This document shows positions 17,718 to 50,842 of a DNA stretch of 64,000 bases, in pieces. Made by a program: the position numbers and the translations under genes. This stretch comes from Fragilaria crotonensis (lineage: Eukaryota; Bacillariophyta; Fragilariophyceae; Fragilariales; Fragilariaceae): contig JAKSYS010000195.1 of the NCBI GenBank assembly GCA_022925895.1, positions 26,591 to 90,590 on the forward strand, in the 5' to 3' direction. A model generated the notes under the pieces. The model was not told the origin of the DNA, ran no database searches, and saw only the letters and a program-made list of their open reading frames with translations. How positions within the stretch are numbered: position 1 is the stretch's first letter; each line of letters begins with the position of its first letter.

Positions 17718-18204
17718 TGTAGTAAAAAGGCACTTTCTTTTCGTGTCAGTGTTCCAAAGCAAGGGAGGCGATGTGAACCTGGTGCTGAAATGATGTCGAG
17801 AACAACCAGGCAGCTCCAAGATGGTGGCCCTTTAATTTGTTGTGATTTATCGATAGAGTAGCTAGTCGATAGACACTGTGCTTCGAAAGAGACACTTGCT
17901 GATGAATGAAACAACAACAATGAGTTGGTGCTGAGCTCATTTCATTGGGACTCGAATCATCTTGACTCTTGACGCAAGGTCCGGCAAAGGACGGTTTCAC
18001 CACACAGCCCAAAGCCAATGCACTATGATAACAAGGATTATCAGATATTCAAGAGATATTAATAAAGCTGTATATAGTTATACACATATAGATGTATCAT
18101 ATGCCATATATGATAGTATGATTGATGATTGATGATTGATCCAAGGGTTTCATAAACCCGAATATCAAATCTCAAGACCCTCGTGACGTCATAGAGCAGT
18201 ACGC
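17718..18204. other. Upstream region of ANK D, with the empty site of the piggyBac-like transposon
   Basis: This region matches block 2 sequence on both sides of the transposon there: 46322-46431 and 50843-51139. The uninterrupted sequence here reads GGCCCTTTAATTTG near 17826-17839, including a TTAA at 17832-17835. It also contains three copies of TGATTGA (18118-18141). No gene was found. Confidence 0.5.
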
Positions 18205-45076: not shown

Positions 45077-46321
45077 TTATCTGTCATCTGTTTGATTACG
45101 AGGCCGCTTCTTTTCTCTGCAGTTCAACTCCATTTCTTTCGAAAGGATCTCTACTTCCGACTCGCGAAGCAGACAAGCCTTGGTATGTTCCTCAAGACAG
45201 CCTACAATTTCAAATACCTCACATTTGCGAGCAATGTCCAATGCTGTCGATCCTGCTTTATTCCGAACACTCGCGTCCACCCTAGCGTCCTTCAACAGTT
45301 CGCGAACCATGTCCAGCCTTCCCCTGAGGCAAGCCCAGATCACAGCTGTGTTGCCATGAGGACCTTGAACATTCACATCCATTATGCCGTGATTCAACAA
45401 CTCAAGAGCAACATCCCATCGATCCTCTGCACTGGCCCAGTAAAAGGCTGTGCGCCCTTTATTATCTTGAGCATTCACATCCACGTCCCGGTGTTTCAGC
45501 AACTCTTGAACAATTTCCAAGTTATCAGTGGTGTGCGGCCGTACGCATCTTTGGCATTGACATCCACCCCCCTTGTGCTTCAACAACTCGCACACAACTT
45601 CCATGTGACCGTAACCGCATGCAGTGATAAATGCAGTATAATGGTGTGCATGAAGTTTGGCATTCACATCAATATCCTTATATTTCAACAACTCGCGAAC
45701 AATGCCCAAACTTCCCTTGGCACACGCAATTATGAGTGGTGTGTGGCCCAAGTTGCAGCTTATATTCGGTTCCAATTCCTTGCGTTTCATCAACTCGCAA
45801 ACAATTTCCAGACTTCCTTCCATGCACGCGGCAATGAGTGGCGTACGGCCACAAGCATCTTGGATATTCACATCAATGCTCTTGTGCTTCAAGAACTCGC
45901 AAACAATGTCAACTTTTCTCTCGAAGCATGCATAGATGAGTGGTGTGCGGCCATCATCGTCATCATCTCTCACATTCACATCCAAGTCCTTGTGTTTCAA
46001 GAGCTCGCGAATAATGTCTAAATTTCCCTTGGCACATGCAATAATGAGTGGTGTGGAGCCGACACTGCTGTGTCGAATGTTGACATTGACTCCATCGTGT
46101 TTCAACAACTCGCGAACAATTCTCACATTGTCGTAGGCACATGCAATGAGAAGAGATGTGAAACCCCATGAATTCTGGAAATTCACGTCGTTCCCCTGTA
46201 TGCATAGCTCCAGACCACTGCGAACCTCAAATGTCAGACCGGGTGTGCTGCGTATGATTGATTTAATCTTCTTCCTGAACCTTTCCTGCTGTTCTGCTGG
46301 TGAGCAATCCAGAGATGTCAT
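45077..46321 (-). CDS. Ankyrin-repeat protein D' (frame rescued by a second indel)
   Basis: This is a single exon of 414 residues from the ATG at 46321 (MTSLDCSPAEQQERFRKKI), nearly identical to D. Compared with D it lacks 19 bp near 45527 (CTTGGTGCATGCAACGATG is absent) and gains one C near 45567-45572 (6 C here, 5 in D). The net loss of 18 bp restores the frame, so a short segment reads GGGCQCQRCVRPHT instead of the normal repeat, and the following repeats are normal. Cap and tail (CREKKRPRNQTDDR) are kept. One repeat is therefore destroyed while the rest of the protein is preserved. Confidence 0.88.
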   Translation of the reverse strand: MTSLDCSPAEQQERFRKKIKSIIRSTPGLTFEVRSGLELCIQGNDVNFQNSWGFTSLLIACAYDNVRIVRELLKHDGVNVNIRHSSVGSTPLIIACAKGNLDIIRELLKHKDLDVNVRDDDDDGRTPLIYACFERKVDIVCEFLKHKSIDVNIQDACGRTPLIAACMEGSLEIVCELMKRKELEPNISCNLGHTPLIIACAKGSLGIVRELLKYKDIDVNAKLHAHHYTAFITACGYGHMEVVCELLKHKGGGCQCQRCVRPHTTDNLEIVQELLKHRDVDVNAQDNKGRTAFYWASAEDRWDVALELLNHGIMDVNVQGPHGNTAVIWACLRGRLDMVRELLKDARVDASVRNKAGSTALDIARKCEVFEIVGCLEEHTKACLLRESEVEILSKEMELNCREKKRPRNQTDDR

Positions 46322-46454
46322 TGTTGCAAAAAGCACTTTCTTGGCGTGTCAGTGTTCCAAAGAAGGGAGGCGATGTGAACCTGGTGCTGAAATGATGTCG
46401 AGAACAACCAGGCAGCTCAAGATGGTGGCCCTTCCCCCGACAGGAAAACTCAAT

Positions 46455-46477
46455 TTTGTCCTACCGGGTAGGACAAA
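46455..46477. repeat. Subterminal hairpin TTTGTCCTAC-CGG-GTAGGACAAA
   Basis: A perfect 10-bp stem with a 3-base loop near the left end of the piggyBac-like transposon. It is likely to be a transposase-binding or regulatory site. Confidence 0.85.
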
Positions 46478-46494
46478 CAAAAAATTAAAAAAAA

Positions 46495-46534
46495 AGATTT
46501 TGTCCTTCCAAGTTTGAGTGGAAGGACAAAATCT
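46495..46534. repeat. Subterminal hairpin, 16-bp stem (AGATTTTGTCCTTCCA)
   Basis: AGATTTTGTCCTTCCA at 46495-46510 is the exact complement of 46519-46534, with an 8-base loop. Related ATTTTGTCCTTCCA occurs at the right end (about 50593-50606). It is a candidate binding site for the transposase or a terminator-like structure. Confidence 0.9.
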
Positions 46535-46806
46535 AACCTTATAACCGCGGGTTAATGAAACTTAACACGGCGATAACCTTGTTAACACTGATCTCCACAC
46601 CTCAATCTGCTCGGCTTAGTCGCTGAACCTCACGGATCGCACTGAATGTGCCAACAGTACCTTTGGGGCAGTCTTGTGTATGCCTCTGCATGACGGATTT
46701 AACGTCAGAGCACTGGTTCCAACAAAATTTCGATTAGATCGCATTGCCGTTGGGTCAATTTTTGGCGATACAGACGACCAAAAATGTGTAACAAGACTTG
46801 TCCTCC

Positions 46807-49800
46807 ATGACACTCCACAATCGCGTCAGCATTATATCAGATGAATCGATGACAATGGACGATCTTGAGGAGCCGCAGGAGATGGAGGAGGACGATCCAA
46901 ATTATGTTGGAGGTACTGATGATATTGATAACAAGATGATGGAGTCCCTGTTTGATTTGAGTGCGTATGCAAGCAACGATGACGGCGGAAATGATGATGA
47001 AAGTGATAGTAGCAGTGCTGGCCAATCATCGTCATCAAGTCAGGGCTGGACTTATCTTGTTGGGAACAAAGCGCCTGCTGTTTCCATTTCCATTGATGGT
47101 GTTGACCTTCGGTTGCTGGAAAAGGCTCGTGATGAAGTCCCGACGGTGCTTGATAACATAAAACGGAAAGTCTTTGGCAGTAAGCAATATCGTGATATGA
47201 GTAAGGTTTCCCCTGGCGACTTCTTGAAGGCGTTCATGGATCCCCAACTCTTGGGGTATCTCAAGACCTTTATTAACGCTAACATGACAAGCGATCCAGT
47301 TTCCAGTTCGGACATAATTGCTTTCATTCGTGTTGAATTGATGTTGTCATTCTACAAGGTAAGAACAAAGTGAAAGCCGCTGTCGCAGCTGTGTGCTATA
47401 CAGTCAGCATTCATTGAACTCATCATCCTTCTTTTTCTTGCATTGATCCAGGTGTCACCTTTAATGTACTTTAATCCAGCCAACGTTGCGAACTTTCCTT
47501 CTTCAACATGTGGTATGAGCCATGCGAGATACAGATGTATTCTACAAGCACTCAATTCGAAGGGCAACACACCGGCACAACTTCCACATCTAGTGTGTGG
47601 CACCACTTCACGACGCCACATTCCTTCAGCAACCTCTACTGGAATCTGGAAGCCCCCCATGTCCCACAATCGGGAATTAGCAACTGCTATGGCCCTCGTA
47701 CGACGAATTTGTGCCGAAGTTGCCTTCATACCAGGCACAACTGATATCGGACTGGATGATGACTTACTTCGTCTCCGTTCTAGGAGAGTTGTCCTTGAAG
47801 GTATTCTCACACTAACAATCCAAACAAGGGGTTGGGGTCGTACACCATGGAGCTGTGTCGAACTGCACTTCGCTGTACTGTGGTGGACACGTTGCATCTC
47901 GCAATGAGTCCACGCTTGACTGCGTGAAAATCCTACTTCTCTCCTTGTCAGGGCATCAATCGAATCACAGATTCGTCTCAATAGGACAAACTTCTTCTGG
48001 GATCGAGGTTATGGGGGTATTGAAGGTGATGTCAACTCGTTCGCAATGGCAAAGGAGCTGTTCTAGTGGGAACATCTCGGAGAATGAAGTCGTTTCCTTT
48101 TACGTTTGATCAGCGCCCTGGTACTTCGCGTCGCCTTATCCAAGAGAAAGGTACCATGGCAGCATACTGGGCTGTCAAAGGAACAGGATGTCAAACCCAG
48201 TATGCCTTGGCACACAGGAGTGGGATGGGGCGTGTCGTGTTGATGCACACAACCGATGAAGCCTTAGGGCCTGGGCGATACACTCTCATTACACGTGATG
48301 GAAAAAATGCAACGATTAAGTACACACGAGTTGACGATGTTGTGATCCCATACCTGCTGCAGTCGTCTTCACCACCAGGCGTCATTATGTTGACGGAAAG
48401 CCAACGCACTCCAGAATGGTTCTTACTGCGAAAGTTCCGGATAACGGGAACAGGTGCATATGGTATTTGGAAATTTATTAGTAGTACTATGAACGATGAT
48501 CTTCTTGATGAGAATATGAACGCAGTGATACAAATCCTCAGCATGCGAAGTAATGACAACAACCTGGTTGAGCCGCCAGAAGAAGACAACCAATCTTACG
48601 AACGTGAAGCTTTGAATACATTGCTGTTGCCGGATCTTCGGAGGATCTGCCGAAACAAGAAGCTACCAGTCTCGGGGTCAAAAGGGATACTCATCGATAG
48701 AATCTTATCATGGACGTCACAGCAGGACGAGCCTTCAAGAAGACCGGCAGCACAGAACAGCATTTTGTCGATACTAATGAAATCATGGTTCATGGCTCCA
48801 TTCAAGTCTAGGGCTTGTCGCGAAGGAACTCTGAATGAGCCATTCATCTTTGCTAACTTTCCTCGGTTTGTTTCTCAGAAAAGTGCAAAGGAGGGTCCTG
48901 ATGGGCAGCGGAGGACAGTAATTGAGAGTATTCACGAATTTGGACTGATGTGTAACGCGGACGACACGAACGCAGCCTTCTCACCTGATGCCATAGCAGG
49001 AATTGCGGATGTTTTGCCTGATGGTACTTCAACTTCTGTTGTTGCGCTGGTGGAAATGAAGTCGAAATGCTCACAGGCGACACTGTCAGCGGAGATGGAG
49101 TTGATAACTTTGTATGGAGAGTATCAGGAAATCAATGCGGAGGAGGATCCAATAAGTTTCAAATCATCAATCCCAGATACGTCTTACCGATGCCAATTGC
49201 TTCACGGAATGGCATCAGGTAATCTTGATAATGCCTTTTTTGTTGTGGCTTCACTGAGAAAAATTATTCGTGTTGTTCGTGTTCGAATCAGCAGTCAGAT
49301 ACGAGGACAGTACATGTCGGCAATTGCTCATTTGGGTCGGCAGCATCTGCGGTGGATTGTCGATGGAGGAGTTGTCCCGGAGATGGAGTTTGAGACAGGG
49401 TCACATGCTGTCGATCAGCATAGTGTGCAGACAACATTTGACCTGTGGCAAGCTATGTGCAACCTCATAATTGATGAGCGAGGGCGCCCTCTTCCAGCAG
49501 GGAAGCATCTTCTACCAGAGGTGGTTGCAACATGGAACAGGGGCAAGGGACCGATTGATGTGTACAGTCGCTTTCAAAAAAACATCAAGTCGGTGCATTC
49601 ACGTCTCGGCCCAGTTGCTGCAATTTGGATGCGTTTGGTAATGACAACTGTGTACAATGCATATCATTCCTTCAATCTAAGCCGTGCAGCCGCATTCCTT
49701 GCCAGCGATGAATGTAAATCATTCAAGGACTTTCAGAGAATTCGGGCTCGTCAATGCTCATTTCGTCAGTTTTGTCAACTTCTTGCGAACGATCTAACAG

Positions 49801-50276
49801 TTGAAGTTGCTTCAGAATTGAATTACACGGCCAGCAGCAGCGAGGACGAAGAGGCGATGCCAAACGATGAAGAAGCAAGTGTACAGGAAGTGATTCTCTA
49901 CAATAAACGGGAGGCTTTCTTCTCCAGGCCAAAACTTATTTCAAAAAGACGAAGTCGAAGACTTGTACATGTTCCGTGTTCTGCTGGAAAGCAATCCAGT
50001 TGTGTCTGGTGTTGTCGTCTGGACCATTCACCAGGTTTTCAAAAGCATAGCCGACATGGCAGGAAAACAACCTGGTTATGCTCTACCTGCGATGTCCCTC
50101 TATGCAAAGTGAAAAGGTACAGCGAACGGAGCTGCTTTGATCTATTCCACGAAGCTGATTCATTGTTTGACCCCTGTTGTGCCGCTGCTCAAGAGGCAGT
50201 GCATGTCCGCGCACACCAACCGAACACTCCCGCCATCTCGCCGTCGTGTCGCCACTGCAAGTTCCGGCCTTGGTGA
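46807..50276 (+). pseudogene. piggyBac-like transposase with internal YqaJ nuclease and SAP domain (frameshifted)
   Basis: Exon 1 (ATG 46807-47358) has an acidic N-terminus, then the start of the DDE domain (SSDIIAFIRVELMLSFYK). A phase-0 GT-AG intron (47359-47451) leads to exon 2 (VSPLMYFNPANVANF ... GLDDDLLRLRSR, probable first Asp). After frame breaks near 47805, 47978 and 48050 come RTNFFWDRGYGG (second Asp region) and VLVGTSRRMKSFPF, typical of piggyBac. In the frame from 48066: residues 114-138 RTPEW...RITGTGAYGIW (YqaJ start), 184-215 a SAP motif (LLLPDLRRICRNKKLPVSG), 308-332 SPDAI...ALVEMKSK (nuclease D...ExK), 490-500 NRGKGPIDVYS (third Asp, 498), and 646-695 the Cys-rich zinc domain (CVWCC, CSTCDVPLC, SCFDLFH). 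It cuts and pastes the element; the added nuclease role is unknown. Confidence 0.8.
47359..47451 (+). other. GT-AG intron in the transposase gene
   Basis: GTAAGAACAAAG at the 5' end and TTGATCCAG at the 3' end, 93 bp, phase 0 (AAG | GTG). Removing it joins ...LSFYK to VSPLMYF in frame, matching the continuous piggyBac pattern. This is the only spliceosomal intron I can support well in the window. Confidence 0.8.
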
Positions 50277-50590
50277 TATCTCTGAAGGAACAAGTTCTGA
50301 TGAAGATGCGGCATCATGTGACTCAGAAGAGGAGAAGAAGTCAATTCCAGGAAATTCAAGTAGCGACGACGCTGACAAAGTGCGATGCGTCCTGCCATTC
50401 GACGCCGGACTGCAACAAAGGCTATTGCAATATCCAGAAGGAGAACAAGACAGAGTTATTTGATATGATCAAAAATGGTGTTGTCGGTTAATTCAGAGTT
50501 AGCAGCCATGATCATGATGATGATCAAGTTTAACAAGTGCATTTAGTACGTGAAATCTTTGAATATTAAATTTGCACGGGCAATTTCGAT
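50277..50590. other. 3' flank of the transposase; possible alternative frame
   Basis: Overlapping the transposase end, a second frame (to 50463) encodes an acidic Ser-rich segment (SDEDAASCDSEEEKKS). This could be the true C-terminus if a frameshift lies near 50150-50180. Otherwise no gene was found. Confidence 0.35.
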
Positions 50591-50830
50591 GAATTTTGTC
50601 CTTCCACTGGTTTTTCCCTCTAGGACAAACAACAAAATGAGCGTGAAAAAATCACCTATCTTTGTGGCATCGTATCTCCACCAAAACAAGACCGTATTTC
50701 AAAAGTAGGACAGATTTAGAAAGGTAATGTACTCAGGAGCAATTTGTACGCCTCAGTTTGTCCTAGTCTAAGAAATTGGAGGTTAGCGGTGATAGCCAAA
50801 ATTTGTCCTCTTTTTTGTCCTAAAAAAATT
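50591..50830. repeat. Right subterminal region with TTTGTCCT motifs
   Basis: TTTGTCCT or its complement occurs near 50595, 50632, 50757, 50802 and 50814. The motif matches the hairpins of the left end and supports these as the element's binding sites. Confidence 0.7.
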
Positions 50831-50842
50831 TCCGTCGGGGAA

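Follow-up and report, generated by a model that had tools for sequence, protein, structure and literature searches.

Scarless excision has brought the piggyBac transposon into wide use as a tool for genome engineering. Its transposase from T. ni and that of Pokey from Daphnia combine an N-terminal DDE_Tnp_1_7 region with a C-terminal zf-Tnp_2-like zinc domain (PMC7351741, PMC3849761), and piggyBac is further marked by an interruption between the second and third catalytic Asp residues (Asp2 and Asp3), an aromatic-Asn-x3-Gly-x-x-Asp context at Asp3 and 4-bp target duplications of the TTAA type (PMC7351741). The interruption includes an insertion domain that follows the fifth strand and lines the channel for the hairpin and the target DNA (PMC7351741). 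Additional nucleases are described in other DDE transposons. ISL2EU elements (PHIS/Harbinger-like), reported from animals, encode a YqaJ exonuclease of unexplained function as a separate, second open reading frame and have a THAP domain, 2-bp AT duplications and termini that usually begin with GG (PMC4482050, PMC9179366). KolobokP carries a His-Me finger homing endonuclease with a proposed role in recombination, which lies downstream of the transposase and is not nested in it, and Kolobok termini are 5'-RR (PMC9587614). In the present study, we analysed a 64,000-nucleotide stretch of the diatom Fragilaria crotonensis (assembly GCA_022925895.1, contig JAKSYS010000195.1, positions 26,591 to 90,590 of the forward strand), hereafter the window, which lies on contig C110 of the 62.1-Mb genome. 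It contains one copy of a transposon family that shares the listed features of piggyBac, its target duplications being TTAA-like. Between Asp2 and Asp3, the DDE region of the transposase accommodates a predicted nuclease of about 330 residues, which is in turn interrupted near its start by a SAP domain.

Like ISL2EU, this family joins a DDE transposon with a nuclease of YqaJ-like character, and like KolobokP it pairs a DDE transposon with an extra nuclease. In contrast to ISL2EU, all parts lie in one frame, the duplications are 4 bp long and TTAA-like, and the termini are CCCC, which also differ from the 5'-RR of Kolobok. ISL2EU, with YqaJ as a separate protein, is the nearest precedent, and the present family is a second association of YqaJ with a DDE transposase, now fused. 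Our literature searches, which excluded Repbase, UniProt and most subscription papers, yielded, among the papers listed, no description of piggyBac fused to YqaJ or of a transposase fused to YqaJ and SAP, although databases may well contain such proteins without comment.

The fusion was found in single open frames elsewhere in the genome. In the copy on contig C52 (L013), an exon of 174 codons (start presumed), one GT-AG intron and a second exon of 1041 codons together encode 1215 residues with no stop, and in the copy on C509 (L014) exon 2 is open over 999 codons and exon 1 is frameshifted. Both long exons join Asp1, Asp2, the nuclease, SAP, Asp3 and the Cys-rich part uninterrupted, and the spliced L013 protein begins with the piggyBac N-terminal region, followed by Asp1 and Asp2, then the nuclease in two portions with SAP between them, and finally Asp3 and the Cys-rich domain. 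An earlier sequence-only reading of the window had proposed that three domains are nested in one protein and had suggested a search for copies free of frameshifts; the L013 and L014 exons bear out the nesting, and L013 is such a copy within the same genome. A tblastn search of the genome with the 748-residue frame of the window copy, in which 60 of 92 candidates were scored, gave at least 81 matches, so that all counts are lower bounds. These matches were grouped into 31 places, 22 of which held at least half of each of three parts (the segment after Asp2, the nuclease and the Asp3/zinc part), the other nine being partial. None of the 31 places had both flanking transposase parts with less than 20% of the nuclease.

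The coding sequence also appeared to be under constraint. Between L013 and L014, the proportion of synonymous differences (pS) was near saturation in the Asp1-Asp2, nuclease plus SAP and Asp3 plus zinc parts (0.76, 0.77 and 0.86, respectively), whereas the proportion of nonsynonymous differences (pN) was low (0.19, 0.25 and 0.22). The nuclease of the window copy compared with that of L013 gave a pS of 0.72 and a pN of 0.23. Because 22 of the 31 places keep the three parts and nonsynonymous differences between L013 and L014 are far fewer than synonymous ones in all parts, the architecture goes beyond chance. Some pairs point the other way: the nuclease pN exceeded that of Asp1-Asp2 between L014 and L024 (0.48 vs. 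0.28) and between L014 and L020 (0.40 vs. 0.32), in both cases partly owing to out-of-frame letters, and the ratio of nonsynonymous to synonymous rates (dN/dS) of the nuclease was 0.80 between L014 and L023, a recent and partly dead pair. The fusion of all parts in single open frames, in several subgroups and within mobile elements, is nevertheless almost certain.

The exon structure was clarified by a subgroup of five copies (subgroup B: C658, C616, C483, C23 and C114), which are 98.8%-99.5% identical over about 4.0 kb and frameshifted through decay or assembly error. The intron is exactly missing from these copies, in which ..FYRVSPSLYF.. runs on continuously, and the splice sites are therefore supported. 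The window copy itself is degenerate. Its first coding half shifts frame, and positions 48030-50276 form a single open frame of 748 codons; as this frame begins before VLVGTS, it holds the nuclease together with the Asp3 part even in this copy. Lesions of the copy (or of the assembly), not introns, account for the changes of frame from Asp1 to VLVGTS. Thus, the three-exon model of the earlier reading had to be abandoned in favour of the single intron present in relatives (window 47359-47451). The motifs it quoted were all located in the window in the proposed order: GLDDDLLR (47749-47772), FFWDRGYGG (47992-48018) and VLVGTSRR (48060-48083) in the DDE part, RTPEWFLLRKFRITGTG at the YqaJ start (from 48405), the SAP motif LLLPDLRRICRNKKLPVSG (48621-48677), SPDAI (from 48981) and VEMKSK (from 49050) in the D..ExK core, NRGKGPIDVYSR at Asp3 (49536-49571) and the Cys-rich part (about 49983-50150). 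The mobile element is wider than the interval first noted (46807-50276) and spans 46434-50840, as copies on C27 and C50 with other flanks share this extent at 98.8%-99.0% identity.

Models of the piggyBac family matched both sides of the nuclease, in different members: DDE_Tnp_1_7 (PF13843) upstream and zf-Tnp_2 (PF13842) downstream. DDE_Tnp_1_7 was matched by the spliced N-terminal part of L013 (8.6e-10, 38.9 bits; cut-off 22.4) and by L015 (27.8 bits), and a genome scan placed it over the cut-off at ten places in the intron-less and third subgroups; a scan of the separate window exons and of L014 exon 2 gave no match. All these matches were limited to profile positions of about 1-99 of 349, not the catalytic core. 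Of the two outcomes that the earlier reading had named as refuting it, the lack of a DDE_Tnp_1_7 match beside the nuclease did not occur, the model being matched upstream, and a separate nuclease transcript is opposed, at the level of the genomic sequence, by the 999- and 1041-codon exons. The five best genome matches to zf-Tnp_2 belonged to this transposon family; scored with their neighbours, the copies on C191 and C83 were at or over the cut-off of 24 (24.0 and 24.8 bits), and the window copy was below it (21.7 bits). In an alignment of 14 rows, which represent about five lineages as several rows are 99% alike, Asp1 (GLDDD) and Asp2 (FFWDRGYGG) were identical in 13 of 13 rows with letters and Asp3 (WNRxKGP[IV]D) in 14 of 14. 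The middle Asp of GLDDD is 82 positions from Asp2, and the N-x3-G-x-x-D context of Asp3 is spaced like Y439-N440-x3-G444-G445-x-D447 of piggyBac (PMC7351741).

Profiles of family segments were also compared, using 60 column shuffles, with ordinary DDE_Tnp_1_7 transposases, nine of which were taken from this genome. The N-terminal region and the zinc domain were positive (real score reached in 0/60 shuffles each). Several results weigh against the piggyBac assignment: in the same comparison, the Asp blocks were not above shuffled columns (real score reached in 46/60 for Asp1, 59/60 for Asp2 and 22/60 for Asp3), an ungapped block comparison of Asp1-Asp3 was not above shuffled sequences, a profile of the DDE part had no match in the PDB, zf-Tnp_2 had no match in the C-terminal part of L013, L014 or L015, and a fold prediction of the 748-residue frame without an alignment reached a predicted local distance difference test score (pLDDT) of only 34. 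A phmmer search of the PDB with L014 exon 2 also returned nothing. Asp1-3 were assigned because they are conserved and suitably spaced and because of the surrounding W-N-x3-G-P-[IV]-D; the RNase H core, on weaker ground, is putative. Weak matches of the DDE part on C108 and C237 were rejected as chance matches to a frame that we take to be release-factor-like.

The insert between VLVGTS and Asp3 is lambda-exonuclease/YqaJ-like, as judged by its motif order and an AlphaFold model. In an alignment with 16 YqaJ proteins from viral contigs (A6), R, T, G, E, P-D, E-x-K and Y-x-x-Q were invariant; all seven of these proteins that were scanned (L037, L043, L048, L050, L055, L062 and L061) matched PF09588 with 66-91 bits. 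The motif order of YqaJ and lambda exonuclease (R..T[GA][ST], G..xE, PD, ExK, Y..Q) was present in the insert in a selected register, as the alignment was chosen from 400 random subset trials for having D, E and Q in register. Across these trials, D was in register in 1232, E in 2080 and Q in 3197 of 3749 rows, and G..E, by a crude pattern, in 412. The AlphaFold model of the nuclease had a pLDDT of 68-92 over residues 151-230 and 271-320 (mean, 59; predicted template-modelling score, 0.58). The best PDB match in Foldseek was lambda exonuclease (4.6e-05), with LHK-Exo and mimivirus R354 also found, and the VIA Z scores of the three were 15.2 (root-mean-square deviation of 3.9, 186 residues), 14.8 and 12.2, respectively. 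When the YqaJ rows were left out, the profile of transposon copies matched SAP chains of the PDB from 0.002, and mimivirus R354 with an E value of 1.2 over D..ExK. An NCBIfam lambda-exonuclease family model matched the nuclease at 0.027 over 21 residues, far under its cut-off. In one-pair hhalign searches against 25 viral-contig YqaJ proteins, the first motif reached 93% and the Y..Q motif 92%, and the core alone gave no match. A single lambda exonuclease sequence did not match profile A2, with which at least one YqaJ protein on a viral contig was found among the matches listed.

These lines of evidence are tempered by several observations. The fold match is partly circular because the alignment used for the model held YqaJ rows in a chosen register, the SAP part of the model had a pLDDT of about 40-50, Pfam PF09588 (YqaJ) had no match in the window, L013 or L014, and PHROGs searched with the nuclease gave only one weak match, with no function assigned (0.13). 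Since the PF09588 cut-off was not reached, the domain is named lambda-exonuclease/YqaJ-like rather than assigned to that family; the YqaJ nuclease of the earlier reading is therefore retained for its motif order and modelled fold and not as a Pfam match. Lambda exonuclease, LHK-Exo and mimivirus R354 resemble the insert in their ordered catalytic motifs and, in the partly circular model, in fold; however, they are stand-alone proteins, whereas the insert is nested in a transposase, split by SAP and not matched by PF09588. The SAP domain (PF02037, cut-off 23.9) was over the cut-off in L013 (29.6 bits) and L014 (25.2 bits), and the window copy was just under it (22.4-23.6 bits). SAP follows the first motif of the nuclease and precedes G..E, so that it splits the nuclease as the earlier reading proposed. 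Among rows with letters, the predicted catalytic residues were kept in 12 of 13 (E), 13 of 14 (D), 12 of 14 (E), 13 of 14 (K) and 13 of 14 (Q). Of the exceptional rows, L017, L019 and L024 are out of frame there, and a contrary case is L023, a likewise frameshifted copy in which the E of E-x-K has truly changed to K. From this conservation, the nuclease is predicted to be catalytically active, which we consider probable. Relatives outside the genome were sought in collections that are not eukaryotic, and none were found in IMG/VR with L014 or profile A3 or in prokaryotic genomes with profile A3.

The termini of piggyBac begin with CCC. In the window subgroup, the inverted repeats at the termini start with CCCC, and TTTGTCCT repeats come next; CCCC was present in all 18 copies picked for two readable ends. 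The window copy and C247, which lack a clean pair, are outside this set, as are C49 and C509 (right end missing, or neither end clear), C416 and C339 (damage at the left end), C822, C786 and C616 (located at a contig start) and C184 (left end beyond the piece); the CCCC ends are damaged in C416, C247 and C509. Identical 4-bp duplications flanked 14 of the 18 copies (TTAA in five, TTAG in three, and CTAA, TTAT and ATAA in two each), all being either TTAA (5 of 14) or TTAA with one outer base changed (9 of 14). The ends were unequal in the remaining four (C603, CTAA/TTAA; C27, ATAA/TTAA; C50, CTAA/TTTG; C114, TAAA/TTAA). Pokey, a piggyBac element, also uses TTAT, ATAA and CTAA as alternative sites, with TTAA at 88%, compared with 5 of 14 identical duplications here (PMC3849761). 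Counting against target duplication in the window itself, its copy (CTTC/AATA) is without a clean duplication, as is C247; the right end of the window copy has one G fewer than other copies. A paralogue of the flanks of the window copy lacks the element; it has TTAA at the insertion point, contains additional segments and shares 70% identity with the joined flanks; a search for empty sites of the C52 and C23 copies found none. Ten stretches of 1.0-1.1 kb (C18, C49, C764, C197, C416, C284, C131, C339, C157 and C822) are considered non-autonomous derivatives because they have both family ends or end regions and none was among the protein matches. The family has moved recently. It very probably belongs to the piggyBac superfamily and comprises cut-and-paste transposons, both autonomous and non-autonomous, with a DDE region whose nested, SAP-split nuclease would act on DNA ends. 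The left flank of L013 (C52:32081-32175) includes about 80 bases that are repeated, with 89%-100% identity, at some 30 places among those listed.

This architecture suggests that transposition is coupled to the trimming of DNA ends, and the processing of hairpin or flanking DNA, as put forward in the earlier reading, is a plausible role. The piggyBac insertion domain, of about 60 residues, compares with about 370 residues here, with the nuclease and SAP between Asp2 and Asp3. Because it is placed where the insertion domain of piggyBac lines the DNA channel, the nuclease would meet the DNA ends of excision or integration. The DDE core would cut and join as that of piggyBac does, and SAP might hold AT-rich DNA close to the ends. 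Exonucleases of the lambda type digest the 5'-phosphorylated strand at the end of a duplex, and our first choice of role is therefore donor-break resection, with flap trimming at the target as the second choice (see below). The nuclease would act on 5'-phosphorylated ends left by excision or integration and resect the donor break, and repair from a homologous copy would then restore the element at the donor site and raise the copy number. We put this role forward tentatively. A broader formulation is possible yet somewhat doubtful: a resecting exonuclease in the transposase's own active-site channel would be linked in cis to excision and would force homology-directed donor repair, so that the element multiplies and is not footprint-free. 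A natural piggyBac relative with an exonuclease at the site of hairpin and target DNA offers a ready test of the coupling between excision and repair pathway, and a single protein with its catalytic mutants would suffice to test the idea that some transposons require a nuclease of this kind.

Other roles of the nuclease could be considered. It might be catalytically silent in transposition and serve, with SAP, as a structural or DNA-binding module replacing the insertion domain. SAP domains bind DNA, L023 has the E to K change in E-x-K, and piggyBac functions with a small, three-stranded insertion domain at the equivalent place (PMC7351741), all of which would fit. Against such a module, the catalytic positions are retained in L013, L014 and nearly all other rows, and the pN of the nuclease between L013 and L014 is near those of the other parts; we consider it unlikely. 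Alternatively, once strand transfer is complete, the nuclease might trim the 4-nt flaps that the element brings from the donor to the target, the duplications being re-made by target fill-in and the element freed from strict TTAA. In piggyBac, the element carries a TTAA overhang once its hairpin has been opened (PMC7351741), and 9 of the 14 identical duplications are not TTAA, compared with 12% in Pokey (PMC3849761). However, two ordinary DDE_Tnp_1_7 elements without the nuclease (L089 on C162 and L090 on C2), with CGG..CCG ends, also have identical 4-bp duplications other than TTAA (ATAC and AAAA, by eye), and the unequal TTAA-like ends of C603, C27 and C114 are what trimming should prevent. 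Flap trimming is accordingly given rather little credence, and donor-break resection remains our preferred reading.

The identity of the element was weighed in the same way. The frameshifts upstream of the nuclease in the window copy might suggest two neighbouring genes, or a nuclease gene inserted in a transposase pseudogene, with the fusion only apparent in a broken copy. This is contradicted by the uninterrupted 999- and 1041-codon exons, by the retention of the three parts in 22 of 31 places with no place lacking the nuclease alone, and by the constraint that persists in the part after the nuclease, leaving it extremely improbable. A different DDE superfamily with TTAA-like targets might instead carry the nuclease; Kolobok also makes TTAA duplications (PMC9587614), DDE_Tnp_1_7 matches the N-terminal part only, and the catalytic blocks are without statistical alignment to the ordinary piggyBac-type proteins of the genome. 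On the other hand, the CCCC termini differ from the 5'-RR of Kolobok (PMC9587614), spliced L013 passes DDE_Tnp_1_7 and two relatives pass zf-Tnp_2, and the Asp3 context has piggyBac spacing, which makes another superfamily improbable. We therefore prefer placement in the piggyBac superfamily. The features of the window copy are listed in Table 1.

Table 1. Features of the window copy and related sites (positions in the window).
Feature	Position	Strand	Basis
Whole mobile element, window copy, 4407 bp	46434..50840	+	Same two ends in L022 (C27) and L021 (C50), 98.8-99.0% identical, different flanks
Left terminal inverted repeat, CCCCCGACAGGAAA	46434..46447	+	End comparison of copies
Right terminal inverted repeat, ending ..TTTCCGTCGGGG	50827..50840	-	End comparison of copies
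Exon 1, with acidic N-terminus and initial portion of DDE_Tnp_1_7-like region; start codon uncertain	46807..47358	+	tblastn to L013 exon 1, stacked relatives
Intron GT..AG	47359..47451	+	Sequence; absent in subgroup B
Exon 2, first part: Asp1 and Asp2, frameshifted here	47452..48083	+	Asp1 and Asp2 identical in 13/13 rows with letters
Segment ahead of nuclease, putatively where piggyBac has its insertion domain	48084..48398	+	Alignment of relatives; position compared with PMC7351741
Lambda-exonuclease/YqaJ-like nuclease	48399..49377	+	Alignment with 16 viral-contig YqaJ proteins, structure model, fold match
Predicted nuclease catalytic residues	E 48837-48839, D 48987-48989, E 49053-49055, K 49059-49061, Q 49194-49196	+	Alignment
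SAP domain within nuclease	48627..48713	+	Pfam SAP 4e-05, 23.6 bits here (cut-off 23.9); SAP chains of PDB from 0.002
W-N-R-G-K-G-P-I-D-V-Y-S-R, third Asp at 49557-49559	49533..49571	+	N, G, D identical in 14/14 rows; piggyBac spacing
C-terminal Cys-rich zinc domain, zf-Tnp_2-like	49983..50150	+	18.2-21.7 bits in window copy, under cut-off 24
Charged C-terminal tail, different frame in window copy, limits approximate	50210..50463	+	Tails of L016, L021 and L022 rows
Paralogous element-free site, TTAA at insertion point	17720..18020	+	Comparison of flanks

Further observations concern neighbouring or similar sequences. The sole PF09588 match reported for the genome was a frame on C120 (L032:3-1379), and used as a query in the non-eukaryotic collections it gave no relatives. 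A different DDE_Tnp_1_7 element is represented by a pair of 98% identical copies (L085 on C442 and L086 on C592), with ends TAGTGTCTAAAG..CTTTAGACACTA and no clear target duplication. Adjoining the window element, the minus strand carries a frame of 423 codons (45077-46348), presumably ankyrin-repeat-like from its repeat pattern.

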